This document shows positions 3,001-61,010 of a stretch of DNA of 64,000 nt, one piece after another (position 1 is the first letter of the stretch; each line of letters opens with the position of its first letter). The notes below the pieces were generated by a model. The model saw nothing but the letters and a program-made list of their open reading frames with translations, did not search any database and was not told where the DNA came from. This DNA comes from Aurelia coerulea (lineage: Eukaryota > Cnidaria > Scyphozoa > Semaeostomeae > Ulmaridae): positions 18,433,501 to 18,497,500 of the forward strand of contig CM076943.1 in the NCBI GenBank assembly GCA_039566865.1, given 5' to 3'. A program made the translations under genes and the position numbers.

Positions 3001-3622
3001 CAGTATTTGCAATAGTCTCAGTGGAGCTTTCAGCTTTGTTTTGCGGGCAAAGATTTGACTTGCTGGCCATTTCTTTGGCATCCTCCATCAAATTCTTCTT
3101 GATACCATTCAAAGTTAAAAGCTTTTCCAAAGTATTTCCCTGATCATTCATAGCATTCCCAGGCGGTTGTTGATCAGGGACTTTCATCGTAATCACCTCC
3201 GTTACATCTACGCTCTCGTTTCCATCTCCACATGAAACAGTGTTACTACTACTAGCTTCAGTGTGAGGCTGAACAGCAGCTACGTCACCAGTGTAACTCG
3301 TGTAGCTACAGCTAGGTTCACTGTTAAGCCCAACAGTACCCCCGTCAGTGAAGCAAGCACCCGATGAACTTGTTTCATCTTCTGCAGTCCCTTCTTCACC
3401 AAGATGATCTGCATACGGGGGTCCATACATAGAATACGAAGGGAATTTTGTAAACCTCATTAATTCATTTCCCGATGCAATTTTATTGAATTCTTCTTCT
3501 GATAAAGTTGATTGTTCTGATTCCAGAATATCATTTTGTTTATTAAAGACGTCTTGAGATGCTTTGTGCACTTCTTTCTTCACTCTTTCGCGACGAATAA
3601 TTAAGTAACACAAATTGCGCAA
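1..3622 (-). CDS. JADE: JADE large C-terminal exon, continues past the left edge
   Basis: A CCTTGCAG acceptor at 3630-3623 opens a frame with no stop over more than 1,200 codons to base 1. It starts [20 protein letters not shown], which aligns with the RNLCYMVTRRER segment of JADE. The rest is acidic, Ser/Thr-rich and probably disordered, with basic islands ([31 protein letters not shown]) likely to be nuclear localisation or DNA/histone contacts. Near the edge the motif RLTRxRxRSxGL occurs twice ([12 protein letters not shown] and [12 protein letters not shown]), with a weaker RLTRGR copy upstream. Two minisatellites are translated in frame. Plus-strand frames here (for example 861-1523) are antisense shadows. 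Confidence 0.9.
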   Translation of the reverse strand, partial: MRNLCYLIIRRERVKKEVHKASQDVFNKQNDILESEQSTLSEEEFNKIASGNELMRFTKFPSYSMYGPPYADHLGEEGTAEDETSSSGACFTDGGTVGLNSEPSCSYTSYTGDVAAVQPHTEASSSNTVSCGDGNESVDVTEVITMKVPDQQPPGNAMNDQGNTLEKLLTLNGIKKNLMEDAKEMASKSNLCPQNKAESSTETIANTDSIQNADNTKCKDTIKVVQKQTIDFGDGQSNFINAPSESPKIETKSSWKVDTLNCVASEKSCRTPKRGPKGNKGQSSAVKRVLRSSPRDIKGTLDVELPVKEDIISRLGNTDLRSSIGHAEDDTVKCLNVHNEVKKRLGLNDSHKGVSRRPPRRITRSCDRSINLDLCEADSSISQGQEHRNQKPNEFTENRDSRTNVGFDKQDSIAVDTQETANVHCSDTPGDSLSYSSVVTKLLEQSEVIEQVSTDVLNNSDLLIDKNLETNIDESSPAADIPNGKVDPDFKVGTDSNDNPDCKVDANRSINSDCKVDANCSINPDCKVDANCSINPDCKVDANCSINPDCKVDLETDQVENDNKEDELRSEKVDCLTSSSEPENATQAAFNIEKESRNDLSVMENRCLENREKCSNQNSSSEVCVQPNAKDTLSTETAVLETDTSSGIKKCAQENIEDMKHQDLTSKVCSEPEVKDLTTIETGAPETDTSIRNVTETTRDHEDIIRENVDLKPASVSLSTEPEPELPSTSQATTPVAESPPVDKPAAESPLVDTPAAESSHVDTPAAESPLVDAPAAESSFIDKPAAESPFVDTPAAESPLVDTPAAESSLVDTPAAESPLVDTPAAESSHVDTPAAESSHVDTPAAESPLVDTPAAESSFIDKPAAESPLVDTPAAESPLVDTTAAESPLVDTPAAESPLVNALQLCFEQQALKDDETGTAEGSFNEEITDDFQTTTTISANHTIVNGHCSESSFSQKENDSPNNDTTTLPKIESSCTETKDGPVPALSRRLSFDIERRDETYLNDRNFFDRFMDSSKNPVVLLNELSGIDRMKEDRPNDLNGLNSSPRKTKKISDAPSPAFPHTVIDDLIACPQRLTRGRTQLMMMDEHRSALSRRNRRKSHHFTNQRSDPDIPRLTRRRLRSFGLEKLDLINNDLMNEVGMTSSYSPRKRNIESDTKNTLNGNTELEDVFLKDVSKTSALEEITGSPTRLTRARVRSLGLGYGE

Positions 3623-6600: not shown

Positions 6601-9600
6601 ACTTTAATTGGGCATCTGAAGAGCACCCTCATGCAAAAGTTTTGCGAGAATCTTTTGCCATTTTGTCGCAATCTGCAGACAAACAGGGCACAATTTTTTG
6701 GGACACCCTGTATATCAAATGTGATTTCACTTCATACCTGGTGAGCCAGAAAAAAGTTCCCACTTTCAAAAATTAGTAGCACCACCAGTTCTTCATGGAT
6801 TTGAATGATTCAAATTCTAGTTAAAAGTCAAAAGATCAAAGTATTTTTGTGATTTTTCTCGTCTTCTTACCAACACTGCAAATATACTGTAGGTAAATTC
6901 AACTTTACAAAAATGTCATAGTTGCAAAATGACTAAAATGGGCCTGAAACACTTGATCAACTCGTCAGGACTCTGCTCCCACAGAACAATACGTACGGGC
7001 GTTTCACCTCTCTCGAGGGTAATAAGACAGATTCTCAAACAGATACTAAAGATTTTTAATCCCATGGCATTAAATGTGCAGACGATATCTCTCACCCATG
7101 AGAAATTACATTTTCTCTGTTGTTCTGAGCGAGGAGTCCTTGATTTGATCACGTACTTTAGGCCTTTTTCAATCATTTTGCAACCACAAAGTTTTTGTAA
7201 ACTTGATTTTATCAATTTTTCCAGTGCTCATAAGAAGGCGAGAAAAATCACAAAAATACTTCTATCTTTTGGCTGTCAAGCAAATATTGATTCTTTCAAA
7301 TCCATCCAGTACCCTTGATACTATGAATTTGCAAAAGTGGGAACTCTTTTCTGGTTCACCCGGTAGTTGAAATTCTTCCCTCAAAGTCCAAAATTTGTCT
7401 GCTGATTTCCAGATCATCTCCTCTATAAGTTCCAAATCTTCAAATCGGCTTAAAAGATGGGTGTAAACTTCTATGACCTAATTCTTTTGATCGAAAAGCT
7501 TGTAAGAAACTTCAGCTACTTGTCTACCGTTCGACTTTTCAGAAAAGAAATCTTGAATATCTTTCGAAATTACAATGTATCTTATATTTCTATTCATTTG
7601 AGGATGTGCCGTCATCAAATTTCTAAATCGTAAACCAGAACAGTGAGAGACTTTTGCTTCATACCATATCGGAAAAAATCCATTATTAAACTATTATGGT
7701 TTTCTTGAAAAGTATTTCATGTTTCGTGCAAAGTTTAGAAGCTACGATGGATTTAAATTTTTTTCAAAATTTGTTTTGAATTCCAGGCCTTTTCGTAAAG
7801 AAATTTCCACAAGGGCGTCCTATCGCCCTTGTAGTTAAGCTTAGGAGGGCGATCGCCCCCTTAAAATAGTCTCGTGTTTTTACTTGTTTTTACTGATAAG
7901 CAATCAAAGCTTCCAAGGTCTTGTTCTTGCAACTTGGACTGTTTCCTTTATGTTCACTTCACCAGAGAGAAAAGAGTCCACTCGAACAGACTACACATTT
8001 TTTCATGCAAAGTTACAAGAAGATTTTATTCCATTTGTTTGCAATGTTCTTCTTTGTTGCTCCATTATTTTTCGTAAGTTAGCAAAAGGTCACAGTAGTT
8101 AAGCCAGCCACTTTCCTGTTGTTCCCTTGATTGAGTGTGAAGCCCCAGTCAAGATAAATAAAGATTCCACAAAAGTCATTAACAGATTAGAGAAGGCGAT
8201 TAGAGTAGTGGATGTAAGCCCTTGAAACAAAACAACCAAGTATCCATTAAAATTTCGTCAGAAAACTTTACTCAAACTTGTAGCAGGCCTGATCTACAGA
8301 GCAGAGAAGGGCTGCAGAATGTTAAACTGGAGAACGATTTTGTAAGAAAGTTAAGATAACTCTGAGTACTATTCATTTTATTGACAGACCCTGATCTCAA
8401 AGAAAGATTTAGTTAAACTGGGAACCTCGATCACGATGAAGAAGAGGGTCGGTACATATATATCGCAAATACTGCAAAGAAATTTTTAAAGACCACTGAT
8501 TTTGCTCTTCATTTTGCAGTTCTTTCAAGTTTCTTGTTAAAATCATTTTGCTAAAGACAAATCGAGAAACATTGACATTTTAGAGTTCGTTTGGGTTCTC
8601 TTCACCTTATTTGCTACACTAGTGGTTAGCCTTCACAACGGGTTGCTTTTGTAAAGAAGTCGAAGAGCTATTACTGAAGGAACAAGTTTAAATCAAGACG
8701 GCTTCGTTCCAAAAGTCTTTTGTAAACGAAATCCTGTTGGAGCTTCGGCAGCTTCGGGCGAAATACGTTTTTGCGAGGGCAGTCAATAGCCCACGTAAAA
8801 TATTTTGCGAGGGCGCTGGCGAGGGCGAGGGCGATCGCCCGCGTAAAACGAAAAGGCCTGCGAAAAAAAAAACCATTTTGGGGCATTATTCCAAATTGAA
8901 AGAGGTCAATCGTTCCATACGTTTTCCTTAAAGGGGTTCCGTCATCAAAATGTAAACAAAACGACGATTTTTGCAGTTTTTTAAAGGTGATATCACACAG
9001 GATTTTCGTATATTTTTCAAAATGAAAGTTGCTGTTTGGGCATTAATCCTTGTACTTCACTAAGGCACAAACCAAACATTCATATCTTCTACGATTGCTC
9101 GGATATAAGTGGATTTTTAACGGTCACTTTTTTGTGGCTTGGGTGAAGCCACCAAACAAATTGCAGAGAACAATGTATGAACAATGGATAATCCCCGACA
9201 CGTGCGAGTTTACGGATTTGTTTACTGTTTGACGACTGAGCCCCTTTAAGAAATGGTTTAACGGAAAATGTTTTCTCGATTCTGAGGCGCAAACTACTTG
9301 TGGATTCATCAACAAAAAAATCCTAGGCATGATCTGATTCAATTCAAAATTAAGCTAGTTAGGTGTAGTGTAATTGTATAGGATTGGTTGATGAATGAAA
9401 TTGAAACTGAAACTTGATTGTTTTTACTAACCCGGTACACGAGTACTTTCCCTTATAAAAAGTCTTGGTTGGCAAATGATTGAGGAATTGATTGGTTCCG
9501 AGACCAAAGTCATGGTGTTTAAGGCATTAAATGGTCTTGCTCCTCAATATTTGACCGAACTTTTCTCGAAAAACTCGCAGGGCTCCCTTCACACCCTCCG

Positions 9601-11096
9601 AAATACTTCTACTGACCTAAAGATACCATTAGTGAAAAGTGGAAATGGTCAAAGATGTTTTTCATTCAGAGGATGGATGTTTTTCATTCAGAGGGGTAAA
9701 ATATTGGAACAGCCTCTCAGCTGAGTCAAAGCAAGCCGTAAAACTCAACAGTTTAAAACAACTATTTAGGAAATGTTTCTTTTTTGCACTTAATTTTCTT
9801 CTGTAAATTCGAACAATTTTGTATTTTAGATTTTCATTTTTAAATCATATATTGTAATTATTTTAATAGTAGGTATATTCCATGAATTGTAAGATTTTTG
9901 ACGGAGGGCCCCTTGTAAATCAGCCTTTGCTGAAAGGTTACCCTCCTATAAATAAATGAAATGAAAAAATGAAATGAAATGAAATGAAAACGAGGAGGGT
10001 AGTACCGCAATATGGTCATGAAAGTGACACTATGTGGTCTGGAACTAGACTTATGACATTTAGTCCCTTGTTTCCCTGCGTTCTTTGATTTGCAGATATC
10101 ACTTGCTCAGTAGGGACTCATTTCATTACTCTTATATAGTGTAGCCACTTTAGGCCAATATGGTGTGGATCCATATTGACCAATCAAATTGCCAGAATTT
10201 AGTTTTCAACCAATAAGGAGGCGCTATTTAGACTGTTGTTGTTGTTGCGTACAAAAAACGGTTGATTCGGGAAAGCGTTCTCGTAGCTGCGATCGATCTA
10301 TTTTGTTTCTACAGAGGAAGATTACTGCTTGAAAAGTATGTATTTTGGGATGAGTAGGTTCCTAAAACATTATTCTTTGTACTACAAGTTTGCTTTTCAA
10401 TGTTGAAGCTCTTTAAACCAGAATTTGAAGCGATTTTGTTGAGTGTACGAGAACTCCCGCTAGTTTAGGCCATTTTGACACAAGGGGCCCATTTTATAAG
10501 AGTAATGAAATGAGTCCCTTATTGAGCAAGTGATATCTGCAAATCAAAGAACGCAGGGAAACAAGGGACGAAATGTCATAAGTCTAGTCTGGAACAGCTG
10601 TCATTTTTAGTTTGAATACGAAACAATGTTTAGCATAACCATCACACCACAACCCCGAACAGGCCAAAAGAGGCATCCACAACAAAAACTGATTTGGAGA
10701 GTCTTTCCTAGCATGATCTTAAATGCTTCATGTGAACGCAGTGCCATCTTCCAAAATTAAAGATGCAAGTCAAAATAGGTTACCTTTCTTTTCAAAACCC
10801 AGTATCCAAATAATTTCGATGTAATATCTTTCGTCAAACGCAATTCTCTCGCTGATTTCTTCACGCTTACTAATTTGAAGAATTTCTCTTGTAACTTCTG
10901 TAACCTAAAATAAAAGAGAAAATCCAATGGCTGTAGATTAAAATTCAATTCAATTCAATTCAAGTCAATTTCTTTTGTAAAATACAAAAACCAATGTAAC
11001 TCACACTAATATCAAAAAAGTTTATTTTGCACCACACAATAAAAAAAGCTTATCTGGCTTGCACTGCTAGCAAAATAATATAATAATAATTATAAT

Positions 11097-40769: not shown

Positions 40770-42150
40770 CACCAGTAACTTGTCTTTCTTTGTGGGCCTA
40801 CGCGTATTCTTTTTTATAAGAAACAGCATGTAAGAAACGGTAGGCTCAATTTTTTGAAAGTTAAGAAACAACTCTACCAGAATTTAAAAAGCTAAGAAAC
40901 TTTTGTAATTTGCAGTTTCAATTTTCTCAGAGCAATCAAAATGTTCTGACACAATGTACAGTTAAAGCAACTAATTAGACATTATTTTGAGTTCGAATTA
41001 TGTTATTTACTTGCTTTGAGATCATATTTTCATTAAGTAATTTGGAACCCCCCCCCCCCCCTCCCCTCTTCTTGACAAAGCAAAATTAACTGAACACTCC
41101 CCGCATTGAAAATACAAGAAACACGTAAGAAACTTTTGGCAGCAAAATGGCCCAAAAATTAAGAAACTGCCTACCAGCCCCGGCCTTAGTTTCTTGTAAA
41201 AAATACGTGTATTACTAATTGGCCTAAAATCGTTGACTCGCGAAGTTCATACATACATGCATCTTCCTTCGTTTCGATGAGCAGCGCAGAAAGACTGACT
41301 AGCATACTATTTGATGAGTTGTACAATATGATATTGGTGTCTAAAGTACTGTAACTGCCAGAGTTGTACCTTAACAATAGGCCTTGAAACTGCGAAAACA
41401 TGAAGCTGAATGAAGGTGTTTTTGCACGAAAGATAGTGTCGGCTTGGTTGGTTTCATTTCATCTGAATCCCATAATGCAGACATTCCTCTTCGTCCATTT
41501 ATGCATAAAAATAGCCGTTTACCCTCGTGAGAATTGCTACACATGGGTAAAATTGTTTTCAAAAGGTTAACGATCACGAAAAACTATGGATTTACATTAA
41601 AATGCTTATATGAGTGTCTACAAGGAATGATGACACATGGAGTAATGTCTCTCAAACGTACAGGCGGACCTGCAACTCTAGGCCGCAAAGCTAATTGATG
41701 ACCAAAGACAGCTCAGAAAAGTTGTTACCTTCGCAATCTGGATGCACTCTCTTGCTGGCAACGTGTTTAGAAGTCATCCCCATGAAAGCATAGATGCTTA
41801 GATAATGCCAAAGATATGAATTGACGTCTGTAGACTGCAATACGCAGTGAATTCCATCGTTAGCTTCGCCAGACGGTCATGTGAAGATTTGAGAATGGAA
41901 TCCAATCCAATCGATCGATGCAGTCATCTGCAAATGGCGCGCTCCATAATGGCGCATTTTCCTCCGCTCCTCCTTCGGCGCTCCCTGGTTCCTCCTTCTC
42001 AGGGTTGCTCTCTTGCCTACACCATAAAGACTTATGACGATGGGTCCCTTGTATCCCTCTTCTTTTTGACTTCAAGATGGCGCTTTGATCAACAGACTCA
42101 TATGATTACTCTGTAAAACCTGACCCTATCTAGACCCAAACTCCGAGCTT
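40770..42150. other. Intergenic, no gene recognised; GC-richer patch at 41930-42075
   Basis: No family match. The 41930-42075 patch has several AATGGCGC/AAGATGGCGC motifs (YY1-like) and higher GC, so it could be a promoter for a transcript on either strand, possibly the missing 5' end of JADE. This is a guess. Confidence 0.25.
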
Positions 42151-42988
42151 AGGATAGGGGTGCTCAGGCTGGGGTACAACGCATCAACCCAAAAAAGTAA
42201 TTTCTAGCAGGAAAATAGACCCAAAAAAATAATTTTTCCGACCTTACATACCCAAAAGTTATGAAGTGAGTATCTTAAATCTGCATAAAAATGCCCTAAC
42301 TGACTAGATTTCTCATAATGTGTTTGGATATTTATGTATTTTTTATTTTAGTACTGTTACTTGACTCTAATTTTGTTTGTAAATTATATTTTCCCCGAAT
42401 TTTTTACTTTCTCTCATATTTGAGACCCAAAGGAGTAAGCCAAAATTTCTTGAACCCAAAAAAATAACTGTACAAATCATTGACCCAAAAAATAATCCTT
42501 GCCTAAATTTTAGGGACCGTTCATTATTTACAGAGGGGTTGGTACTGAAGAGAAATGTTTTCTTGTCCAAAAAATCTTCTTAACCAACTCTAAAAGTGAC
42601 AGCAAAAACATCTACCCAACAATTTTCAGGTTGAAAAAATTTTGCCCAACCCCTACCTATAAACATGGTTTCAATGTCAAACGATGTAAATTATCAATTC
42701 AATACTGTAAATATTGATGACAAAGATGAACAAAGTAGACACTGAAAGTGAAATGAATAGAGTTGATGTTGATGATGATATTGATAATTTTGGACTTTAA
42801 ACATTTGGCATTAATTGGTGGGAAAATTTTGTTTTCACAACCTTGAAATTACGTGAAAAATTATTTACCCAACCTTTTTATGTTAGAAAATTTCTCTTAC
42901 CCAACCCATTTCTCTTCAGTACCAACCCCTTTATAAATAATGAACAGTCCCTTAGACCCAAAAAAGTAACCTGAGCATCCCTATCCTG
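42151..42988. mobile_element. TIR element built of degenerate GACCCAAAAAAGT repeats
   Basis: Ends AGGATAGGGGTGCTCAGGCT and AACCTGAGCATCCCTATCCT are inverted. The non-nested interior is a string of degenerate GACCCAAAAAA(G)TAA units. A second copy lies at 59338-59815. Confidence 0.8.
42511..42954. mobile_element. MITE nested in the 42151-42988 element
   Basis: Ends TAGGGACCGTTCATTATTTA, then CAGAGGGGTTGGTACTGAAG, with the inverse at 42907-42954. The sequence between the arms is mixed. Confidence 0.75.
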
Positions 42989-45644: not shown

Positions 45645-48600
45645 TCATTTCTTGCTTTTGCTGTTGCTGCTAAGCTGACGACCAAAATGAGTGCCGCCAC
45701 TTGCCTTTGTTGCATCTTCAAACTCAATTGCCTTGGCTTTTGGTCCAGCCAGAGTGAAGCAGACAATAAACCGTACCCTCTGATCCTGTCTACCTCTCCA
45801 ATTGTCATCCTCGCCATAGAAGTGCTTTGGGACACTTATCTTCAACTGGCCCTGTTCAAGAGCAATGAAAGGATATTCTTTTTTGCTGTGTGGATGACGC
45901 TTTGCAAACCGTAGTCTTCCTCTGCATTCTTGGATGTACTTCTTGCTGTCTTTGGACCAGAAATCTGACCCCAAAGCGTCATCCGTTTTCTGTCCACGTC
46001 GATTTGGCTCTGTGCCATATTGTTGCTCCAGTTCAGCATGTGAGATCAGTCTGGACATTCTTTCCGAGTCTTCGCCTTTTCTGATGAAATATTGTTGCAA
46101 GAATCTTCTATGATTCCCTTCGCATTTCTTGACACATGTCTCGACAGCATCTTCGTATTTTGGTCGATACTCCATTACCGAGCCATTAATGATCTGAAGA
46201 AAACAGATGACATATGTGAAAAAATGGCTGAAGGCATCATAGGGCAGCGCTTTTTGCCAATTTTTGGCAATGTTGAAAGCTTTCTCGAGATTGTATGACG
46301 AATGGCCTTGCACTGTAGAGAATCCGATTGCATGAACTGCATACTCGTACATCTTATACCTCATCACTAGCTTTTCTAACAACTCTTGCAACTTTGGACG
46401 ATCTGTTTCTTGTAATAAATGGATATCTCGCTTCCCTGCTTGGCTGATCATCCACGATACTTGTAGCCTTGTTAGCTCTTTCTCATTGGCTACTTTGAAA
46501 TTTTCTCTTGTGCAGATCTTGTCACAGAGATCTGCAACATTTAAAGACTGTATTGCTCTCCTCTTTGTTTTTCCAACAGTTCTCCCGAGAGTACTCAGAA
46601 GTGAAATTCGACTATCATTGGCTAATCTCATTGTATGCAAGGGATCAGGAAGTCTTGGAACAGACTGCACCATTCGCTCAATTGCATCTAAAAGATAGAA
46701 GCAATCACTGATTGCAGAGCGGAAAAAATCATCACTCATCATGAATTTAATTGCTTCTTCTACATCTGATTCCTTCCATCTAATTATCCAGTCAAAGCAG
46801 AATTGCCATACGTTCACTTCCCCATTTAATGGATTTGGAAATGTCATTGGCGGATTATCACGTGCTTTTCTAAATCTATGCAGAGCTTTCTCTGCGTATC
46901 TTTCCAAATCTTCAATGGTTTTTATTTTCTTCTTCTTGACGGCCTTCATTTCTCTCAGTAAGATATGGCCTTCTGTATCTCTGACACCACGTATCTTCTC
47001 CCTCGAAGCTTTCTTATCAACTCGAAGCCCTTCTTCGATGAGGTCGATTGCCTTTTTAAAGTCAGGTTTTTCCGAACTGTAGGCAATGAAGCGAGCTGCA
47101 TGGGAGAAGAGAGATGCATCTTTTGCTTTCTTTGCTGCACTCTCAAAAATCCGGCTTCCATTCTCTAGCTTGTCAATGAGCTGAGAAAAGTGACTTTCAC
47201 TGCTTTCCTTATTGTGGAGCAAAAGGTCATTCACTAGTTGCTTGATATTAATGTTGTCTTGATAGTAGACGAGGACTGGAGAGTCGATAAAGTCCTGTGT
47301 GATCTCATCTAGACTTCTCTTGGAATGGGCGATGACTTTTTCGGCAATTTTTCGATGCTGAAATGTATACCATTTGATGCTTCCTTTCGTAGAAGAGGAT
47401 TCCCCTTCAAGGTCCTCATCATCATCATCGCCGTCTTCCTCTTCTTGGGCAAAATTTCTTGACGCAATCCATTTTTGTTTGCTTGGTGCTTTCTTTGAGA
47501 TCATCAAGTTGAGGAGATTGTCAGAAAACTCACCGCTAATTTCGTCATACGTGGAGTCTTTCTTCTTCAAATATTTGGCTATAAGTATTGCAGGTGTCTC
47601 CCAATTGGAGTATATTTGCAAGAAGCTCACCAAAACTGCAACTTCGTACTCTGTTGAGTGATCCTCTTTGAGTATGTCCAGTGATCCATAAACAATCTCA
47701 TCCAGCTTCGTAAATTCTTCCAGCATTGCCATCATGGGAAAGTGAAATACCCTGGTGGAGCTTTTGATTCTCTCTCTGTCGTCCTTTGTACCTTGAAATC
47801 TATCACAGTAGTCCTTGAATTTCGTTTTGAACTGTAACAAATCATGATTGTTGTCTTCGAGGATGCTCCCGACTGTAAAATTACTCTTTTCATGCAGGTA
47901 GGCATCACGTAGCTTGGTCAACCCTTGAGGATAAACACATCTTACAATGATCGCTTTCTTACCCCCTGCATTTAATTTTCTAACAAGATGGTCAGAGACA
48001 AGTCTGACTACCCTTGGATTGCCATCAATCAAAACGATCGGCCACAAGTCACATGTTTCTTCAAGATTACCGATCCGATTTACTAGACTTGCAACAAATT
48101 GCTCGTCTTCTGCCTCAATGCCTGGGTTTTCACTGACAGATGCCATCTTGACGATTGCACATGGGTGCTCGCTTCGCAGATCCCACAATAATCTTCTTGC
48201 TATTGTTGTCCCCCCTGTACCTGGCGAATGGCAAATCTGTACTATTTGTGGCGTACTGAAACGATCAGGCATTTTTGATATATACTGGGAAATGCTGCGT
48301 GTGACACTTCTCGTAACATCGTGGCCAAAATGCAGACTTTCAAATGAAATTGGGTTCCCCCCTATGAAGCTCTTCAAGTGATCATTTTCGAATGCCTCGA
48401 ACTCCTCCTTCGATAGCTCAGTTGGGATACCCTCACAGTCCTGATACAATACATCTAGATACTCTGCAAAGTAGTGGTATTGCTTCTTGGGTATTGCAAC
48501 TGGGAGCTCTGCTAGACGTGTAGGCAGGAAATATTTGTCTGTCGAACCACCCAGCAGGGAATGTATCCCGATAAACAGGGACTTCAATGACAGTGCTGAA

Positions 48601-49420
48601 AATTCTGAACCAGGAAGTTCTTCAAGATCTAGTTCTGACGACAAGGACACGTAACCCATTTTGTAATTAGCGCAGGAAAATATGCTATCAATTTCTTGAA
48701 CAACCACATTGGCAATCGGGACTGAGTCATTTCTCAGACTCAAAACCAGGCAAAAAGTTGGCTTCATCTTGTCAAGCTTGGAGCAACATGCTTCTATGAT
48801 TTTATTGACCCTTGGTTTAAACTTCCTTCTCCAATCAACGATGCTTGACTTTGGCTCATCTTCTTCATCTCCTTTGTTTTGGCCATTTACAAACATCCAC
48901 TGAACCCTCTTCATGTTGATGTTGTTACAGCGATCTTGAGATGCAAGCTGGCTTGGCGTGTGTGTAACAAGTAGGCCACTTTCTGCATCATCGAATGGCG
49001 AATTTCGTAAAAATCCGTCCAAATCAGAGTCAGGATCAAAGTCAAGTACAAGTTTCCAGGAGATATTTGCAAGAGCATCTAGATAATGTCTGTCAGCAGA
49101 TGCTACTTTATCAACGACCAGAATATATTGATTGTTATCACAATCAAAGTTGTTTAACATTCGCTTGGTTTTCACCCATGTATCCCAGCTCTCTTTGTCT
49201 GCTTGTACGGCTTGCTCTGGGATTCGACGTTGCTCAATCTCATTTCTTGCTATCTTGTGCATTAATGTTTCTATTCTGTCCATCCCGTCTTGTAGGCCAT
49301 CTAGCTTCCCTCCAGTTTCTTTATTACCTTCTCGAATTTCTCTGGTTAGGTTTTCTTCCATGCGGCTAACTTCTTCGCGAAACATTTGATAATATAGGTT
49401 CTCTGGCGTCAGATCTGCAT
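45645..49420 (-). CDS. HEPN-SAMD9-like gene, exon 3: SAMD9 core
   Basis: 3,776 bases after a TTTAAACAG acceptor; it joins exon 2 in frame as TAVN-DADLTPENLYYQ and ends at TGA. The whole SAMD9-like core sits in this one exon, as in vertebrate SAMD9, whose coding region is also essentially one exon. An acidic insert (EEEDGDDDDEDLEGE) lies between the NTPase and the helical region. All plus-strand frames across it are antisense shadows. Confidence 0.93.
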
Positions 49421-52400
49421 CTGTTTAAAAAGTCAATAATATCAAAGGATGAGACTATGCAAGATCAAGAGCCTATATTGCGGACGCACGCTAGTTCTAG
49501 ACTGTAGAGGATTCACTGTATCACCTGATTTTCTTCGCCCTAAATTCATTGAACTTGCTTTTCTCTTTCTACTCACTCCCTGTTTAAAAAGTACAACCAA
49601 AAACTATGTCGAGTAAAACTTTTCTTGGCCATAGAACTACGATTATTTTCTAAATTAATCCAAACTAGAAATCATTCGAAAGAGTTTAGCGAGCGAAACT
49701 TGAGATCTTTTTAGGCAACAGTTTACTCGAAGTTGAAACAAGAAATTCTAAATCCCTGCTTCAGTTTAAAAGTAAATTGCTTGCAACATTTCGGGAGTCA
49801 AGCTGTTGACAAAACTCCGTGTGCAGTTCAGTGCTCTAAATGAACATCGCTTCAAACATGTTTTGACTGCCTCAGCCCAGCAAGGCCATATTGGCAGCAG
49901 CAGTTCCCTATTAGTTTTGTGTTGCGTTATTCTTTTCTTTCTTTTGTTGTTCCACATTGCTGAGGTAGATCACTGGCATTACTGGGAACAAGCACTGTAA
50001 TTTCTTTCTCATTTTACTCTACGAGTTTTCAAGGCTCGAATTTTCTTTTTGACGGGTAATCTGCCTTAGCTTTGTTGTTTTGTTGTCTGTTCTGTGTAAT
50101 GTATCTTAGGCTATGATCACACTGCTCCGCAGTCATTTTCATCTGTTTTCATATTGATTCGTTTTACCTGTTTACATTGCTCTGGGTTAATATGAAAACG
50201 CAACGAAAACGATGAAGCGTTGACATTGCTCCGGTCCGGATAAAAAAGAAAACGCTATGAAAACGAGACCACCGCCTCTCTTTGAAATTTGGAGTTTTGG
50301 TGCAAAGCATACACTGCAAGCATTACAATTACACTAACTTCGAGTGAGTCAGCCATGTTGAGAGAAGTTGTTCACATTGGCGCGAACTAAGCAAGTTGTT
50401 GAGTTGTAGTTGTTGTTAGCATTTTCAAAAGTATCCATATTTGCGTTCTCGGTGTTCACACTGCGTTTTTGCGTTTTCAAAAGTCTCCGTTTTCAAAGTG
50501 CGTTTTCGAAAATCTCCGTTTTCAGGGTGGAGTATTGTGAACTCAAGGCGAAAACAGATACTTTTTAATCCGTTTTCATATGAATACGGAGCAGTGTGAA
50601 CAAGGCCTTAATTTTGTCCTTTTGTTCTTTGTTTATGTATCGAAAATTAAGTGAACTGCAAGTACCATCCATAGTGAAGACCTGATGACTATATGTCGGC
50701 TTTATTTCTTTTTCACTATGGATGGTACAATGAAATGTAAGTGTAAATATTGTAGCTTTTAATCTTGATAGAAAAAAAAAGACAATTTTGCCCTCTGAAG
50801 AAGACAACAAATCTGACAAAGTGTCTGAAGAAAATTGTTGCTGCCGCAAAAGTGGACTTGATAGATAAAACATTTTCATCTCGCTTTTCAATAGACATTG
50901 ACTATTTACGTTCTAGTAATGCTGATCAAACAATCTGCAACCCATTTTCATAGCCGAAAAACATTTATCCACATTTTTTGCCACTAGAATGCTGGGTGTA
51001 ACATTTTCAAAGATTTGTCCAATTTTCTCAAATTCAAAAATTTATAACTCCGTAAGAACACAAGATAAATGAAAACTTTGAAAAGCGCATAAAAGCTCAA
51101 TTATTCAGCTTTCTAAAACTGCATAAAAACCAGTGATCTAGAGAGCTTCCAAATTTTTGAATGTCTGCCTATAGCCCACTGTGAACTGGAAAATGAATTT
51201 GTTCATAACTGGGTTGCAGCAGTTGCAACATTTTTTTTATCATTGCCAAGAATAGAACCAGCAGTTTTCAATCACATAGCCCACCAACTAATCCACTGCC
51301 CTAAATTACTGAAAGCAATGCCCAACACGAGCCCATTTCTCATTGGCTACTTACAAGTCATGTCATACGATGTTGCCCCAGGGGGTAACTTACGTTTCCA
51401 TGATACGGGGCTGTATCATTCAAAGCGTAAAACTACCACTCATAAATTCGGAAAATTTCTGAAAAGCATACCCATACATTCGGAAATGCCGACAAAGTTC
51501 ACGTATAAATGAAGTTTTACAAAAAATCATACCTAAGCATACCCTACCCATAAATCCGGAAAATATAAAAATTGTTGAAAACCATACCCAAAAATACGGA
51601 CTTCCTCATATTAAATCCGGTCTCCCTCATAAAAAGGTACGCTAAAAAATGGCACAACCCCGTACCATGGAGAACTTAAGTTACCCCCCCCCCCCGGAAT
51701 GTTTCTCTATGTTTGGGAAAATTACTGGTGCAATGATGCTTCTTGGTGGTGATGCCTAGGGTGATTCCCCAACGAGTCGATCCCTTGCCGCCACACAAGG
51801 AATTATTCTCCAATCATGTACATATCTGACTTCCTATTCAATTTTAGCCTGTCAACCAGACCCAATTTCAAAGGAATAGTGGTCTGTTCAATACAAGATG
51901 AGGGAATTTTGTATTTGCCATGCGCGAATCAGGACAGGGAGTGAAGAATATGAGAACTATGCGCCATCTTCAATTTTTCTTCTAGAATTATACGTTCATG
52001 CAGAGACCATTGGCGCAACCAAAAGTGTTGCTTTATGCCATTTTCATTCAAACGTGGATAAAAGAAATCTCTAGAAAAGTTTTGTGATAAACAATGTTCT
52101 TTTGTGATCAAAAACACAACTCAAACAAAAGGGGAACACAAAGACAGTGGAATGTCCACGGGGACTTCAGGAATTGTTATGACAGGGCAGAGGGCAGATT
52201 GCATTCAGTGATTACAGATGCATTTTCTGTTAAATCTGAAATTATTAGGTACTGGCGGATTTTACGGAAACCAAGCTTAGTTATGCTTTAAAGGTCCCTC
52301 AAAATCTCATACTGTTGTATGGTGTAATTATTTTTTGTAAAATTAGTTTTTTTTTGGTAGGAATCGCGGCCTTGTTGCGGGTGTTTCCCTCGCAGAATGC

Positions 52401-54318
52401 AGAACAGAACAGGTAAATTTTCTGCCCTTAAAAATATTCCCGGAACTAATGAAGTATACCAGGAGATAGAATAAACATTCCTTGAATCATCCTGAAAGTT
52501 TCATACTGTTACAAGGTGTAGTTTATTTTATAGAATTATTTTTAATCAAGGGGTTTTTGGTCGTGAGTTGTTTGTTGTTGGGCGTTTCCCCTTCGGAATG
52601 CAGATTGTACTGAGTGATAACAGATAAATGTTCTGCCCTTAAAAATATTTTCTGAAACTAATGAAGTATACCAGGCCAGGAGATAGCATGATCATTCCTT
52701 GAATCATCCTGAAAGTTTCGTATTGTTACATGGTGTAGTTTTTTTGTAGAATTATTTTTAATCAAGGGGTTTTTTGGTCGTGAGTTGTTTGTTGTTGGGC
52801 GTTTCCCCTTCGGAATGCAGATTGTACTGAGTGATAACAGATAAATTTTCTGCCCTTAAAAATATTTTCCGAAACTAATGAAGTATACCAGGAGATAGCA
52901 TAATCATTCCTTGAATCATCCTGAAAGTTTCGTACTGTTACATGGTGTAGTTTATTTTATAGAATTATTTTTAATCAAGGTGTTTTTTGTTGATGGGTGT
53001 TTCCCTTGCAGAATGCTGAACAGAAAAGATAAATTTTCTGCCCTTAAAAATATTTTCTGAAACTAATGAAGTATACCAGAAGATAGCATGATCATTCCTT
53101 GAATCATCCTGAAAGTTTCGTATTGTTACATTGTGTAGTTTCTTTGTATAATTATTTTTAATCAAGGGGTTTTTTGGTCGTGAGTTGTTTGTTGTTGGGC
53201 GTTTCCCCTCCGGAATGCAGATTGTACTGAGTGATAACAGATCCTTGAATCATCCTGAAAGTTTCGTACTGTTACATGGTGTAGTTTATTTTATAGAATT
53301 ATTTTTAATCAAGGTGTTTTTGGTAGGAATGGTGGCCTTGTTGATGGGTGTTTCCCTTGCAGAATGCGGAACAGAACAGATAAATTTTCTGCCCTTAAAA
53401 ATATTTTCTGAAACTAATGAAGTATACCAAGAGATAGCATTATCATTCCTTGATACATTCTTAAAATTTCATACTGTTACATGGCGTAGATTTTTTTTAT
53501 AGAATTATTTTGAATCAAGGTATTTTTTGGTCGGAAGTTGTTCGTTGGTGGCTCGGGTGTTTCTCCAACGGAATGCATATTAAAAGATAGATAACTTGGA
53601 AATATCGAGGAAATATTATCTAAATCAAGTTTTTCATTGAAATTGACTTCTGCTTTCCATCTCTGTTTATTTCTTAAACATGAATTGGGCGATAGACAAA
53701 AATTGTACGTGACATAATTTGGTTGATAGCCCATCACTATATTTTTGCTGCAGAGCGCTTTGGTCAGCGGTATACAAAATTCCCTCATCTTGTTCAATAC
53801 TAGCCTACGTGTAGACCCCTAGGATAATGGGTCTACTCGTAGGCTAGTTCAATACCGCCATTTCAAGAGGGCTGTTTTCCAAGTTTTGTGGAAAATGTAT
53901 GCGCATAATTATCTCGCAGCTCAAAATATTGTCATAAAAACAAAGAGCGAAGTATCTTAGTGCAGCAAGGTTAATCAATTGCATGATTAGACCCTTAGGT
54001 CAGAGATCAAATTTCTATGCAAGGCGGAACAAAGAGAAAAATTTCAAAGAGTTTCCTGGGTAAATGGTTTCTTTACAAATAATCAGCAAATTATTCTGAG
54101 GAATTCTCAAACGAGGTTCGAACAAGCTTTATGGTAGACTTGCTCCCAAGTCTGTTTTGTCAACTGTAATAAGTCTACCGGAAAGTTCCCTTCAATTTTG
54201 TTGACGAATTTTTTTTTGACGAAATAGACTTGGGGCAAGTCTAGCTTTATGGCGGTATTGAACAGACCACTATTTCCTTTGAAATTGGGTGTGGCTAACA
54301 GGCTAATTCAATTTACGC

Positions 54319-54413
<95 letters not shown>

Positions 54414-57400
54414 GTCATCATCATCACTATCACCATCACCATCACCATCACCATCACCACCACCACCATCACCATCACCACCACCACCACCATCAAAACC
54501 AAAACTCAATTTCACTTAAATGTACTTACCGTTGACTGCTGTGTCGAAAGAGTTTTTGTCCAGCCCCAGTGTGATGAGAGAAGTTTCCATTTCAGACAGA
54601 TATCGCTTAAACTTCACATCTGTAAACTCTGGTTTGCTTACGTGAGATACAAAATCATTCTTCATGTCTTTTAGCGATTTCATTGCGTCCAAGTAGCCAC
54701 TGTAGAGAGGATCCTTTTTCAGGACGTCTTGGGACACCTTCGTAAAACGCAAAACTTTTGTCAACAAGGTCAAGTCCCATTGATCTATGTCTCCAGTTTC
54801 AAAAATTGTCTTTTCTTTCGGAAAGTCAAAGCGAAGAATTCCTTTGTTGAAGTGAAGAAGATCGTCCGTAGAATTCTTCCAGCTGGGATGGATTCGTCTG
54901 AAAACTTGTCTAAGTGTTTCCAGACCGCAACGGTAGAGAATGATCACCAATTGAAGAAAATTGCGTCTAGAAATAAGAATAGAATAATATAATGATCATA
55001 GCTGTATTGCTCGTCTGGTTTTCACGACCCCCCTCCCCCTCTCATGATGCTGATGCTATTGATGAGTGGCTCGCACCACTGAAATCTGTACCAGATCTGT
55101 ACCCTTCTTGCTGCGAAGTAGGCCAAGGCAGGTTTTCGATACAATGGCTAAAAAGTCATCCGTACTATTTCATTCAAGCAGGACATTATCATTCAACAGT
55201 AGCTACCAAGAGCAAGAAACTTTCATGCAGCCGTAGCAGCAAAGTAAGAGGACTGAAGGTGAAGTTGCGGCTTTCAGAACCAAGCTCTTGGTTCGCAGAA
55301 GTAGAGAAGACCTAATCCTATGATGTTCGAGTGGTGGGGTTCTACCTGGGATCGAACCCCGGGTTCTGCCTGCGAAGTCAGAGGATTGCAACACTGCGCC
55401 ACACCCGGGGACCACAAGACCTTCAAAACCACTGATTCACAAAACCTACCTGCAATAGCAGTGAAATGAAAATGTAAGGCAAAGATTATCAAGGATACAA
55501 TTGAACAACTTCGTTCGTTTGGAAAAATTAGACAAAGAGGAGCCAGAGAGACCATTAATTTTGGCCAATCATGACAGTTTGAAATTACAAGAAGGGACGA
55601 GGAAAGTAAAAAATCTAAAGAATTATTCAAACTTCAAATTAAAGAACGGAAAAATTTCCTAAGGACGACAAGAGGTTCAATGCAACGATGTATCAAGAAT
55701 TCGAAAGGGGGATCATTATCATCACCATCATTACTTATTTCTACAGTAGGCGAGAATTAATCATAGCTATAAATTACATCTAATTTAAGCCTACTTTACA
55801 CTAAACAATATATAAAAAATTACAAAATAGATCGAAAGGTCTATCCTGTTAGGAACCCAAACTGCGGTGCATATATTTTGCAGAGTCTGCAGTTGCATCT
55901 GTCGCCTTTCCAGCACTTTATTTGCTTTTTAAAGATTGGAAGGGTGCTCGAGTCGTTTATCTCATGTGGTAGTACCACGGGGGGGGGGGGGGGGGTTCTT
56001 CCATAGTAAAGGTACCTGGGGATGTGCAGCGAGCAAGGGTATACTTTTTCTGACTTCTAGTCTAGCCAAGGGTATACTTTTTTGCACTTTTGGCCAGCAA
56101 CGGTCTAGCCAAGGGTATCATTTTTGACAATATTGGTCTAGCTAACAGTCATGGTATCATATTTGGCACAAATTTGACAATATTGGTCGAGGAAATGGTG
56201 AAAATTGGTCTAGCCAAGGGTACCATTTTCGTAAAAATTGGTTCAGACAATGGTCAAATTGGTCTAGCCAAGGGTACCATTTTCGTAAAAATTAGTCTAG
56301 CCAACGGTACCCTTTTGAAGATGCTCGCGGCAGACCCTTGCCCAAAATTTGGGCAAGAACCCCCCCCCCCCCCCGTAGGTAGTACCTGCCACATTATATT
56401 TCTAAAGAAGGTGTTGTTTCGATGCCAAAGGAGGTGATGGTGCGGACCTTTGGAAGCTGGGCGTCGTTACCATGTCTTAGTTTGTAACCAATGTTTCGCT
56501 GCATAAAAGTCTCCTTCATAAAACTTAGATTCAGATCGAATTTAATTATCCTTCAAATCTTCTTCATCTCTATCAAAATCTCTTTCATATTACTTGGATT
56601 CACAACCTATATTACATGAAGGGGATCCGATGATTGTTCCCCTTCCTGTAATTTAGGTAAGCTAATGTCTGGTGATAAAGACAACGATTTGTTTCGAAAA
56701 ATCTATGAAAAAGGGGGGGGGTGGGAGCCGCGGCTCTCGGGGCTCAACCCTGGGTACATCTTGCTTTAATGCAGGTGAAAGGACAAACAGATCTGCAGTG
56801 TTTCCAACGAGTCGGTCAGGGTATTCTATTTATTTGAAAATGCCCATTTTAGACCCAAATTACCCCCCCCCACCTTACCCTATATCATATGTATGCCTCG
56901 GAAGAAATAAAAAAGTCAAGAACACAGAACGAGATCCAGCAACGTAGACTGATTGCTTGAGTACTTAGTTTCCCTGTCCTCTTGAGTTGATGATGTTATT
57001 TTGGTCGCTTCAATCGACAGTCTGCACTTTACAATTTACTGACTTTACTGAGTTTAGGTAAGATCTTATATTTTGGTTTAGGTAAGGTCTGTAACTTAGC
57101 TTAGGTAAGGTTTTTGCTGCATTTTGTTTCCACGATGTATGTGCTAGCTGAGAATGAGCTAAGAAGAACAATTTTTCGCTGAATCTCTGCTGTTGAGGTC
57201 GTTGAGCAAATTTACTGCAGGGATACAAGGGAATTGGTAATCAGTCTACTAAGCAACGTTGTGGGTGATTTCAATGTAGTCTATGTAATGTAATATAGCT
57301 TTTGTTGTAGCATTAATTGACATTTTCAGGAATCACATTCAATTTGAAGCAAAGCCTCCAAATCCTACAGAACAGCCAGAAATCTAAATGGTGCTCATTT

Positions 57401-60400
57401 TGAAGCAAATATACATATGAAAAATTTTTTTGTAGGAAAAAAATTTCAGCAAGACATCTCCTTTGGTTCGGGTTTTATGATCAATTGAATATTTCAGCAA
57501 CTGTTGCAAATGTGCATTTTTTCACGAGATAGCAATTTCAACCTCAAACATATGAAAATTAAATTTCCTATCCTAACTCTGTTTGCATTTATTTATAGTA
57601 CACTATGAATGGTATGGAAATTTAAAGTTTTCAGCAATTGACAACCAACGTATTTCTAAAATGAGTATGATTTTGATCCCAAAATGTGTCTGGGGAAAGG
57701 ATTTTGGTGTTGATTTTCTGATCAACACATGTCATGCAGCTTTTCAATTTTATGGAATTGCATGTTGGACCCCTAATGCTATATTTCAAACGACCAAATG
57801 CTTTTCACTAAAATTCCTTCCTCCAGTGGGTGGCAAATTCTTTCAATCTCTGCCTAAACGCCTATATTTCCATATTTTCAGACAACATCTTGCAAAGATC
57901 TCGCAAAACTGTAGATAGCTATTCATATCATCCAAATGTGCACCTGCAGAAGTTCTGGAAAAGAGTAGCAACCAAGAACATTTTGATCTGACACAAGAAC
58001 AATACACCTTTTCAATTAACGGCCTCGTTTTGGAAATTTTTGAAAATTTCTTCCTACGAAACTTTTGAACACGAATTTGGATTCAGCAGCCAAAGTTTAG
58101 GCTAGATGCAAATTTTCAAAATATTACTGTTCGTGATTCTGATCTTATGACGATAATAAGTTTGAAATCTATTTGTTTGAAGCCTTAAGGGATTTGACCG
58201 TGAAAATTCTCAGTCATTATTTACAGTCAAATCCCTTATAAATTTTCAAATTTATTATCGTCATAAAATCAAAATTGTGAACACTGGAATTATGAAAATT
58301 AGCGACCAGACTAAAAATTTAGGTGCTGAATCTAAATCTGATGTCAGAAATTTCATATGAAGCAATCTGGAGAAATTTTGAAAATTTCCAAAAGGGTCCA
58401 AAAGGAGGCCGCTTAGTTGAAAAGGTGTATAGGCCTATCAAAATGGATGCATGCCCAAAACAGTTAAATATGGCCAACTTCAACCTTCGCAGTGGAAAGT
58501 AAAGTCTGCACGCAGGCTACCAACACAGTAGCACAATAACTTCAGGTTTTTTGACAGATTTTTCCTAATGGTGCATTGTTCACGCTTTTTCAGAAGAACT
58601 CCCTTTAGAATAGTTGAATAATGAACTAGATTTGATCCAAATAGAAATACATTTTGTGGTTGTTGTGCTAGACTGATCATATGGTTGTAGCTAGTTATGT
58701 CTCATTCAATTCCTACCCTGATCCCCCCCCCCCCCTCGTGCAGCCCAGGGGTCCATAAAATTCCTTGCTCAAATGCGGGGGGCCGGGGAAAAATGTAGGG
58801 TCAAATGCCCGGGGGCCATGAATATTTTTTGTGCAAATGCCCGGGGGTGTCCCAGGGGGATGGTCAGGGTAGGAATTGAACGAGACATTATCGCTATTGA
58901 AAACCTGCCTTGGTCTGGTTTAATAGTCTCGTTTTGAATAGCGATTACGGGACTCAACATTGTAATCAGTCTATCGTTGTGCTATAGTTGTTCAAAACAG
59001 GGGGTATGCTCATATCTGTCCAAGACCAAACTTGCATCTATTGGCATAGAATTTCTCCAAATAGATTTGCGAATGTCTGAGTTGAATTGAAATCATTTTC
59101 AAAAAGCTGTTGTCTTTAGCTCTGTCAAATAACTTTAAAATTAGAAGGACTTTTGAAAACGTCACCTAACAGGCATCTGTTGTTCTTTATTTTGAATGAC
59201 CCTGGGGAGATACAACACTTTTTTGTGACGCGTGTGGCCTACATTTGGTTGGGAAGAAAATGTACCTATAGTAGAAGGTGTTGTAGATTTATATTTCTTG
59301 TGGTAGCTCTCATTATTTCCAAAGGGCAGCTCCAGCTCCCCCCAGGGGGGCACTCTGGTATGCTTAGGATAGGGGTGCTCAGGTTCTTTTTTTGGGTCTA
59401 AGATTTGGGCAAGGGTTATTTTTTTGGGTCGATGATTTTTACAGTTATTTTTTTGGGTTCCTGAGATTCTGGTTTACTTTTTTGGGTCTAGAATATGGGA
59501 CAAATTCAAAAATTGGGGAAAAATATAATTTACAAACGAAATCAAAATCAAATAACGTTACTAAAACCAAAACCTTGAATATCCAAATACAATAAGGAGA
59601 AATCTGATCAGTTAGGGCACTTTTTTACAGATTTAAGATATTGATTTCATAACTTTTGGTAATGTAGTGTCAGAAAAACTATTTTTTGGGTCTATTTTCA
59701 TGCTAGAAATTACTTTTTTGGCTCTATTTTCATGCTAGAAATTATTTTTTTGGGTTGATCCGTTGTACCCCAGCCTGAGCACCCCTATCCTAAATATATC
59801 TGAGTACCCCCTGGGCAGCTCCCTTTGCATAGACTCCTGTGTATCCCTCCACTTTTTATACAGAATGACTACACTACTTACTGGTCGTTTGTGGGCCCTT
59901 TACTCTTCGTCTCGATTAGCTGTTTAAGTGCTACATCTGGCTCTTTGGCTTGTTCCTTCACTATAATTGTGCTGCCATCATTGGTAAAGCTTTGACTGCT
60001 TTCTACTGCAGGGGGTACGGGGGGTTTCGCCACTTTCGCTTCTAAGTTGTCGTGATTTTCTTCTCCTGTTTGAGTAGGTTGAACAGTACGATCTTCTGTT
60101 TCTGAGTTGCCTGCACAAGCTGCGTCATTCATATTTTGGCTTTCCTGGGGATGTTCCATCACTGCAGTCGGATCTGGGGCATAAGAGGTGATGGGTTCAG
60201 TGCAATCAGTGCCTTTTAGCAACCCTCCAGCAAGTCTAGCTTCACGAATGATGTCTGCGTAATTTGCGCGCAGTTCCTTTATTTGATTTTCAACAGACTC
60301 TTTATTGGCAACCACTACGTCCCTTTCATTGTTATTTGGATGTGGTGGCTTCAAATTGCAATGGTGTATCAAAAACTGCCTGAACTTCCCAAACTCTTGA

Positions 60401-60891
60401 GCAGGAAAGTTCTCCTTTTGATGCACTTTCTGCCATGCCTGTAGTAACGTGTTGAGTTTTAGTGCTGCTTCTTCTTTTCCAAGATATTGATCTTCTTCTA
60501 GGATGTCTTGAATCACAGATAGTAATTCAGATTTCAAGATGATAAACTTTGGCTTCGCTCCGGCAGTAGGCCCTGGAATTTCATTGTCTCCACTTGTCGC
60601 TGTTTCGAGCTTTTGGACGATAACTGCGGACTTTTTGTTGCTTTGTGGGGAAGGGCAACTCTTAGGGATACCAAAAGTTCTCTCCCCGAAGTCTTTCGCA
60701 TTGCAAACCTTTATGAGGAATTTCTTGAAGCCTCCAAAGTGAAAATTTGAGAACGCTTCACCAGGATGTAACTGCTCCCACTTTCGCAGTAAACAGTCAT
60801 AGTTAAACTTTAAGTAACCATTTCTTTCCTTGCCAACTTTCCTGATCAGATCCAAAATTTCCTCCTTTAGTTCATCCTTCGTTAAGCTCAT
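45645..60891 (-). CDS. HEPN-SAMD9-like STAND NTPase with duplicated N-terminal module (complete, 3 exons)
   Basis: Gene span; exons 60891-59882, 54966-54530 and 49420-45645 total 5,223 coding bases (1,740 residues plus stop). The ATG at 60891 is preceded two codons upstream by an in-frame TGA. Order of parts: two related modules (residues 8-64 and 119-179); an acidic linker; a DZIP3-type HEPN domain (about 343-470); a short helical segment; a SIR2-like region with SWKLVLDFDPDSD (about 600); a STAND P-loop CHSPGTGGTTIARRLLWDLR near 879 with a Walker-B-like WPIVLIDG near 942; a long helical/TPR-like region; and an OB-fold-like C-terminus (PFIALEQGQL...FIVCFTLAGPKA, about 1650-1720). The NTPase and OB-fold match SAMD9/SAMD9L, vertebrate interferon-induced antiviral translation inhibitors. 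No SAM domain is seen. I infer an intracellular defence sensor; the function in this animal is untested. Confidence 0.9.
50109..50606. mobile_element. PIF/Harbinger-like MITE with TTA duplication
   Basis: TTA at 50106-50108 and 50607-50609. Ends GGCTATGATCACACTGCTCC and the inverse of CGGAGCAGTGTGAACAAGGCC. The interior repeats GTTTTCAAAAGTCTCCGTTTT-type phrases. A 3-bp TTA duplication suits PIF/Harbinger. Confidence 0.75.
51380..51695. mobile_element. TIR element of degenerate CATAAATTCGGAAAAT repeats
   Basis: Ends GGGGGTAACTTACGTTTCCA, then TGATACGGGG, with the inverse at 51652-51695. The interior is a degenerate tandem array of CATACCCATAAATCCGGAAA-like units. Confidence 0.7.
51845..54305. 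mobile_element. 2,461-bp Mutator-like element carrying a satellite array, exact 9-bp TSD
   Basis: ATTCAATTT lies directly on both sides (51836-51844 and 54306-54314). Ends TAGCCTGTCAACCAGACCCA and its inverse, continuing with AGGAATAGTGGTCTGTTCAA. The right arm is interrupted by a nested inverted-repeat insert (about 53800-54250, with a TAGCCTACGTGTAGACCC hairpin). No transposase frame is seen. Confidence 0.82.
52290..53560. repeat. Satellite array, units of about 190-230 bp
   Basis: Six to seven units, each with CATCCTGAAAGTTTCGTACT, TTACATGGTGTAGTTT, GAATGCAG and TTCTGCCCTTAAAAATATTT. One unit (about 53115-53262) has an internal deletion. The array lies wholly inside the 51845-54305 element. 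Confidence 0.9.
54321..54495. repeat. (ATC)n/(ACC)n microsatellite
   Basis: About 105 bp of pure ATC, then ATC/ACC mixtures. It starts about 35 bp inside intron 2 from the HEPN-exon donor (54530). Poly-Ile and poly-Asp frames across it are artefacts. Confidence 0.95.
54530..54966 (-). CDS. HEPN-SAMD9-like gene, exon 2: DZIP3-type HEPN domain
   Basis: 437 bases between a TTATTTCTAG acceptor and a GTAAGT donor, phase 2 in and phase 1 out. It encodes LETLRQVFRRIHPSW, then IDQWDLTLLTKVLR, then a KNDFVSH motif and LSEMETSLITLGL. This is the layout of the HEPN domain of DZIP3 (TEALRxVFxxIHP, QWDLL, DITLLxxLLR, RNEVYGH, ALxxLG). HEPN domains are helical and often act as RNases or nucleotide-linked effectors. 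The usual catalytic Arg is Lys here (K439, H445). Confidence 0.88.
55254..55415 (-). mobile_element. tRNA-derived SINE, best copy
   Basis: The minus strand starts GGTCCCCGGGTGTGGCGCAG (box A) and carries GGTTCGATCCC (box B) 40 bp on, then a body with GGTCTTCTCTACTTCTGCG. It is an internal Pol III promoter-bearing SINE and not a functional tRNA, because the acceptor and anticodon stems do not close properly. Confidence 0.8.
55968..56386. mobile_element. TIR element of degenerate GGTCTAGCCAAGGGTA repeats
   Basis: Ends GGTAGTACCACGGGGG and CCCCCGTAGGTAGTACC are near-inverted. The interior is a degenerate array of TCTAGCCAAGGGTACCATTT units. Confidence 0.72.
58002..58430. mobile_element. Palindromic MITE, about 430 bp
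   Basis: Ends TACACCTTTTCAATTAACGG and the inverse of its partner at 58394-58430. A central hairpin lies at 58185-58245 (AAGGGATTTGAC and its inverse). The TIR resembles that of the 4215-4628 element. Confidence 0.72.
58697..58888. mobile_element. Small TIR element of CAAATGCCCGGGGG repeats
   Basis: Ends TGTCTCATTCAATTCCTACC and the inverse of GGTAGGAATTGAACGAGACA. The interior has three TCAAATGC(C)CGGGGG(C)C units. Confidence 0.72.
59338..59815. mobile_element. Second copy of the TIR element built of TTTTTGGGTCTA repeats
   Basis: Ends CACTCTGGTATGCTTAGGAT, then AGGGGTGCTCAGG, with the inverse at 59770-59812. The interior is a degenerate TATTTTTTTGGGTCTA array. Same family as 42151-42988, without the nested MITE. 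It ends about 65 bp before the exon 1 donor (59882). Confidence 0.8.
59882..60891 (-). CDS. HEPN-SAMD9-like gene, exon 1: start and duplicated module
   Basis: 1,010 bases from ATG to a perfect GTAAGT donor (59881-59876), phase 2 out. The two modules align as LKxE(I/L)L..I...Y...LL..W...H..E.F...(F)G.F..FLI..CN. The spacing of helix-like segments and the closing FG-F-FLI pattern recall winged-helix modules of the LOTUS/OST-HTH type, but this is a pattern guess. Residues 180-336 are a low-complexity acidic linker. Confidence 0.88.
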
Positions 60892-61010
60892 ACTTCAATC
60901 CCTTAAATCTCTAGATGCCATTCCAAATCATCAGTATTGAACATGCCATCTACATCAACGATATGCCTGCCTTCCTTCGAGTACTCCAGGCAAGACGGTT
61001 AAATCCAAAT

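Follow-up and report, generated by a model that had tools for sequence, protein, structure and literature searches.

Analysis of a 64,000-nt stretch of Aurelia coerulea DNA (contig CM076943.1; hereafter the window, with positions counted from its first letter) revealed a minus-strand gene at 45645-60891 whose joined exons encode a 1,740-residue protein. The order of its parts within one protein, that is, N-terminal winged-helix-like modules, a HEPN domain, and a core of the SAMD9 type, is near certain. We put at roughly one in two the probability that this is a single SAMD9-family sensor of the STAND type, with a HEPN head that targets RNA in place of a transfer RNA nuclease (tRNase) and that works by the mechanism set out below.

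The window contains minus-strand stop-to-stop frames at 59878-60894, 54516-54995, and 45645-49424. Splicing of 60891-59882, 54966-54530, and 49420-45645 through GT/AG borders, with GTAAGT as the donor sequence at both introns, rendered 5,223 nt in a single frame, i.e., 1,740 residues plus one stop codon, which confirmed the three exons, coordinates, splice sites, and compatible phases proposed in an earlier note on this DNA. Exon 1 (59882-60891) contains the start codon and encodes two winged-helix-like modules along with a disordered linker (residues 1-336 plus 2 nt); the other parts are divided between exon 2 (54530-54966), which encodes the HEPN domain, and exon 3 (45645-49420), which encodes the SAMD9-type core and includes the stop codon. 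HEPN and core are joined by a helical linker delimited by alignment (residues 484-560; 49188-49418), whose coiled nature was judged by eye. A TGA lies in frame two codons 5' of the ATG at 60891, and an AATAAA lies no more than about 10 bases from the stop codon. Guanine-plus-cytosine content in the gene region is 38-40%, at which, by our own arithmetic, chance is an unlikely source of the 336- and 1,257-codon stretches free of stops and, with less force, of the 145-codon stretch. Several repeats were also evident around these exons. A (TCATCA)n array at 54319-54495 starts about 35 bases beyond the exon 2 donor and could disturb splicing if unstable; intron 2 holds an array of 217- and 146-base units (52370-53501), and inverted repeat copies that are 83-94% complementary lie downstream of the gene (42149-42492) and in intron 1 (59420-59793).

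Relatives of the joined protein were sought in three protein searches, with about 8,000 candidates scored in each. Exon 3 as the query retrieved at least 18 proteins. In an end-to-end alignment, P0002 (1,732 residues) is 52% identical to the joined model (model residues 3-1740), and P0009 (1,728 residues), which has the same domain order, is 38% identical to it over residues 11-1739. P0006 (1,513 residues) and P0007 (1,504 residues) have one N-terminal module, the HEPN domain, and the core, and P0020, a partial sequence from a later search, has one module, the HEPN domain, and the beginning of the core. Identity between the window protein and P0002 was 41% and 37% in modules 1 and 2, 53% in the HEPN domain, 57% in the SIR2-like region, 63% in both the nucleoside triphosphatase (NTPase) and helical regions, and 55% in the OB part. 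P0002 spans both exon junctions, gap-free over 13-14 residues on each side; P0009, P0006, and P0007 span both as well, and show gaps ahead of the first junction, where the linker is poorly conserved. This alignment around the junctions led us to reject in-frame skipping of exon 2. The introns, of about 5 kb each, would suit two or three adjacent genes wrongly joined, but the compatible phases, the GTAAGT donors, and the HEPN domain that adjoins the same core in five relatives, each a gene model of its own, make such an error very improbable, and it was rejected on the relatives and the phases. All five of these proteins (P0002, P0006, P0007, P0009, and P0020) are named in the same style and could be paralogues from a single species; hence, they count as separate gene models, perhaps not as separate lineages. 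P0001 is 97% identical to the window protein and comprises the core only, and the remaining core-only matches look like single-exon gene calls from contigs. Among the candidates scored in a search with residues 1-480 of P0002, P0002 itself was the one match; P0009 was not recovered in spite of having these parts, indicating that word searches fail to reach the N-terminal half. Another protein, P0019 (source annotation 'Sterile al...'), has one winged-helix module and the core, with no HEPN match in N-terminal position; its layout may reflect HEPN loss, an older arrangement, or a gene model that lacks an exon.

Exon 3 matched the solved human SAMD9 (9zjr) in phmmer with E 1.4e-18 (residues 89-429), and a 15-sequence profile matched SAMD9 with E 2e-38 in three collinear segments, namely the SIR2-like region plus P-loop, the helical region, and the C-terminus. 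The SIR2-like region (about residues 571-800; 48468-49157) and the P-loop NTPase region (about residues 860-1100; 47568-48290) have approximate limits. The helical segment, at the position of the TPR in SAMD9 (46008-47570; 9.9 bits), and the C-terminal one, which matches the OB-fold end of SAMD9 at FTLAGPKA (45648-45950; 15.5 bits), are collinear with SAMD9 and both weak. The P-loop reads HSPGTGGT (residues 880-887; 48207-48230), with glycine in place of lysine and a histidine upstream, as is typical of the SAMD9 family according to PMC5445408 (this and the other articles cited by number are drawn on as excerpts). Indeed, the pattern H.PG.GG[ST] was present in 20 of the 22 sequences compared, the exceptions being P0011 and the truncated P0020. 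The claim of a SAMD9 core in the earlier note was thus upheld by the phmmer and profile scores and by the GGT-type P-loop, and membership of the core in the SAMD9 family is strongly supported by these sequence comparisons.

Pfam yielded no TPR match in exon 3, and no match to AlbA_2 (PF04326) or SAM in any window exon at E<=1, with a library that does detect AlbA_2 in the protein P0018 and in seven of 12 bacterial loci described below. The nSTAND profile PF25199 scored above its cut-off in P0018 and below it in P0002, P0009, and P0019; neither the window exon nor P0006 or P0007 had it listed at E<=1. Listings of Rhabdo_ncap (E 0.0024), Baculo_p24 (E 0.0094), YwqH-like on P0006 (E 0.0075), and the HEPN family PF05168 within the P0019 core (E 0.054, with no stretch passing) are weak and were taken as chance. 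NCBIfam matches were all below cut-off, with an unrelated one on exon 3 and two on P0019, and Rfam gave none at gathering score.

The structural model of exon 2 is a HEPN fold, with a predicted local distance difference test (pLDDT) value of 92.6 and HEPN proteins as all four top structural matches; Foldseek listed no match of any kind at E<=0.001 for this model or for that of the N-terminal module. Against the Pfam DZIP3-type HEPN (PF18738), exon 2 scored 21.4 bits, below the gathering cut-off of 27, and five relatives scored lower still; E values for the HEPN domains of this family ranged from 2.4e-4 to 0.089. Accordingly, of the 'DZIP3-type HEPN' proposed previously, the fold is supported by the model and its structural matches and the DZIP3 label stays under threshold. 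The view that HEPN occupies the effector position at the N-terminus of a STAND-like protein was supported. An ORC6 match of the HEPN profile (E 0.11) was weak and taken as chance.

Exon 1 encodes a module (residues 1-78; 60658-60891) that is predicted to be winged-helix-like from its model, which follows the order H-E-E-H-H-H-E-E with block pLDDT values of 80-92, and from its structural matches, none of which stands out (Rpc5 6.6, Egalitarian 6.4, cullin WHB 6.0, CSB 5.8, and TDRD7 LOTUS 5.4). Module 2 (about residues 113-193; 60313-60555) was modeled with lower confidence and without wing strands, and is a diverged copy of module 1 by an alignment score of 96, compared to a mean of 24 (standard deviation 4.4, maximum 55) in 2,000 shuffles. 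The 'new duplicated module' of the earlier note is therefore duplicated, but module 1 is modeled as a known fold, the winged helix, instead of a new one. The module is doubled in the window protein, P0002, and P0009, and single in P0006, P0007, P0020, and P0019. BLAST with window module 1 matched P0002, P0009, P0019, and P0020 (weakest E 0.003, within this small set); the module of P0006 and P0007 gave no direct match to it and is linked via P0020 (1e-16 from P0006). The sole Pfam listing on exon 1, DUF4784, was under cut-off (E 0.29; 0.021 for module 1 alone) and taken as chance. HEPN sits where SAMD9 has its known effector, the AlbA_2 tRNase, and not at the place of SAM, whereas the winged-helix-like module ahead of it is at the place of the vertebrate SAM. 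Because SAM is confined to vertebrates within the family according to the 2017 survey (PMC5445408), it need not have been replaced, as the earlier note had inferred.

In the mechanism proposed for SAMD9, the C-terminal half restrains the protein until a signal is sensed; SAMD9 would then open and assemble, upon which its N-terminal tRNase cuts tRNA-Phe (PMC13245274, PMC12331169). In the window protein, sensing of an infection signal would fall to the helical and OB parts at the C-terminus. The module with the GGT-type P-loop would change its nucleotide state and drive assembly, thereby pairing the HEPN domains as dimers. These dimers would cleave or bind RNA of the host or of a virus, with tRNA as the first suspect, and so stop translation, and the pair of winged helices, by binding nucleic acid or a partner, would target or restrain the head. 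HEPN ribonucleases (RNases) act as dimers, and a HEPN domain in place of the tRNase fits the logic of SAMD9 because assembly would create HEPN pairs. We infer assembly, RNA cleavage, and winged-helix function in this scheme, as well as the antiviral or immune role, the latter by analogy with the SAMD9 family. More tentatively, the SAMD9 STAND chassis may in this lineage have swapped its AlbA_2 tRNase for an unrelated RNase fold, a Lys-His HEPN targeted by one or two winged helices. Such a head would be the animal equivalent of the interchangeable nucleases at the N-terminus of bacterial Avs proteins and would arrest translation by a second chemistry.

The putative active site departs from the usual one. 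The canonical R-x4-6-H of typical HEPN RNases (PMC3710099), found in 194 of 202 pearl-oyster DZIP3-type proteins (PMC9646362), is absent; the window protein has KNDFVSH (K439 to H445; 54642-54662), a K-x5-H, and K(N/D)xxxSH occurs in all six HEPN-bearing proteins. Nuclease activity is thus not to be assumed in a HEPN domain devoid of the canonical arginine. The domain could be catalytically dead, forming with the winged helices an RNA-binding or dimerization head, with the output delivered by the SIR2-like region or by a partner that is recruited, in the way thought for DEATH-type domains in other SAMD9 relatives. The change of Arg to Lys in six of six proteins would suit this alternative, as would the proposal that some HEPN domains lacking the motif are non-catalytic RNA binders (PMC3710099), the dependence of the rabbit SAMD9 tRNase module on the SIR2 region (PMC12331169), and the DEATH-superfamily adaptors of other animal SAMD9 proteins (PMC5445408). 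However, lysine keeps the charge, and the Lys, Ser, and His of the site are invariant in the five-sequence alignment and in the sixth protein amid much divergence, which suggests that the site is functional. In the Parep1/8 HEPN family the arginine is missing as well, and other basic residues are discussed as its possible substitutes (PMC3710099). We consider a dead HEPN domain rather unlikely, and slightly favor cutting of RNA over pure binding, given that the Lys-His site is fixed while the domain diverges.

Alternatively, the protein could regulate RNA outside immunity, for example, in germ-line or transposon control, with the winged helices as LOTUS-type RNA binders. Pfam listed LOTUS/OST-HTH (PF12872) for one of the ten modules (E 0.096), but a ten-module profile found no LOTUS among Protein Data Bank sequences at E<=10, and other winged helices scored as well as LOTUS or better. 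Alignments of eight and ten modules did not establish this assignment. The core is, moreover, that of an antiviral family, and a role outside immunity appears decidedly improbable next to the sensor with an RNA-targeting HEPN head.

A scan of bacterial and archaeal genomes returned 12 loci, fetched partly by the P-loop pattern H.PG.GG[ST], which ten of them carry. In their N-terminal 300-500 residues, SLFN_AlbA_2 was above cut-off in seven (L001-L005, L007, and L008, from records named Latescibacteria, Bryobacteraceae, Sulfotelmatobacter, Acidovorax, Streptomyces, Bacillota, and Dehalococcoidia) and TCAD9 was listed in four, one above and three below cut-off; L010 had only a chance-level listing. 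Pfam HEPN was listed at E<=1 in none of the 12, although a diverged HEPN domain could escape, given E values of 2.4e-4 to 0.089 for the HEPN of the window family itself. In a quickly built FastTree of the cores (1,006 columns, leaving out the partial P0010, P0014, P0017, and P0020), the window protein grouped with P0001 and P0002 (support 1.000), nested in a group of the exon-3 matches and P0019 (1.000); the 12 bacterial loci fell outside this group, as did P0018 and P0021.

Elsewhere in the window, a long minus-strand open frame at 2-3646 contains tandem repeats (14- and 16-letter protein motifs) and several LTRxRxRSxGL-like motifs; its sole Pfam listings, Extensin, Hexapep, and LbH_EIF2B, do not reach the cut-off. 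A plus-strand frame at 9431-9724, which we take to resemble the end of a long interspersed nuclear element (LINE) reverse transcriptase, had no Pfam match at E<=0.1.

In humans, SAMD9 and SAMD9L are proteins of restriction and of disease, and their tRNase head is described as setting them apart from the other STAND proteins of animals in that it acts directly, without an adaptor (PMC13245274). If a SAMD9 core naturally bears another RNA-targeting head, this would mark the core as a general chassis and would separate its roles in sensing, switching, and assembly from that of the tRNase; the window protein would also offer a direct test of K-x5-H HEPN activity. These observations suggest that animals, like bacteria, are able to swap the effector head of an immune sensor.

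Compared with known systems, the window protein shares with SAMD9/SAMD9L and the animal SAMD9 family (Mekhedov et al. 2017) a core with a SIR2-like region and a GGT-type P-loop, followed in the order of SAMD9 by weakly matching helical and OB segments, but carries a HEPN domain and winged helices and, at E<=1, no AlbA_2 or SAM; its layout is therefore unlike that of vertebrate SAMD9, as previously noted, with HEPN in the place of the human tRNase (AlbA_2). The 2017 survey names SAM, CARD, Death, Pyrin, and FIIND heads, regards AlbA_2 as ancestral and lost from some members, and does not use the term 'HEPN' in its main text (PMC5445408, excerpts). A HEPN and SAMD9 combination in one protein was not found in searches of the open-licence literature of PubMed Central, including the excerpted PMC12851939, and PADLOC had no match at E<=1 for the three window exons, P0002, or P0006. 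Bacterial SAMD9-like proteins have the core and an exchangeable N-terminal head in common with the window protein, but this head is SLFN_AlbA_2 or TCAD9, and Pfam listed no HEPN at E<=1 in the 12 loci. Bacterial Avs (AVAST) proteins likewise bear an N-terminal enzyme head on a STAND module, which is of a different NTPase subfamily (Avs5 is nSTAND3), and Avs5 is reported to be structurally similar to SAMD9 (PMC12931631). NACHT proteins of oysters and cnidarians similarly have a HEPN head, like that of DZIP3/hRUL138, on a STAND NTPase (PMC9646362, PMC8260672); theirs is NACHT with typically R-x4-6-H, whereas the window protein combines a SAMD9-type NTPase with K-x5-H. HEPN on NACHT and the N-terminal variation of SAMD9 relatives were thus known already, and what appears new against the literature searched is HEPN on a SAMD9 core.

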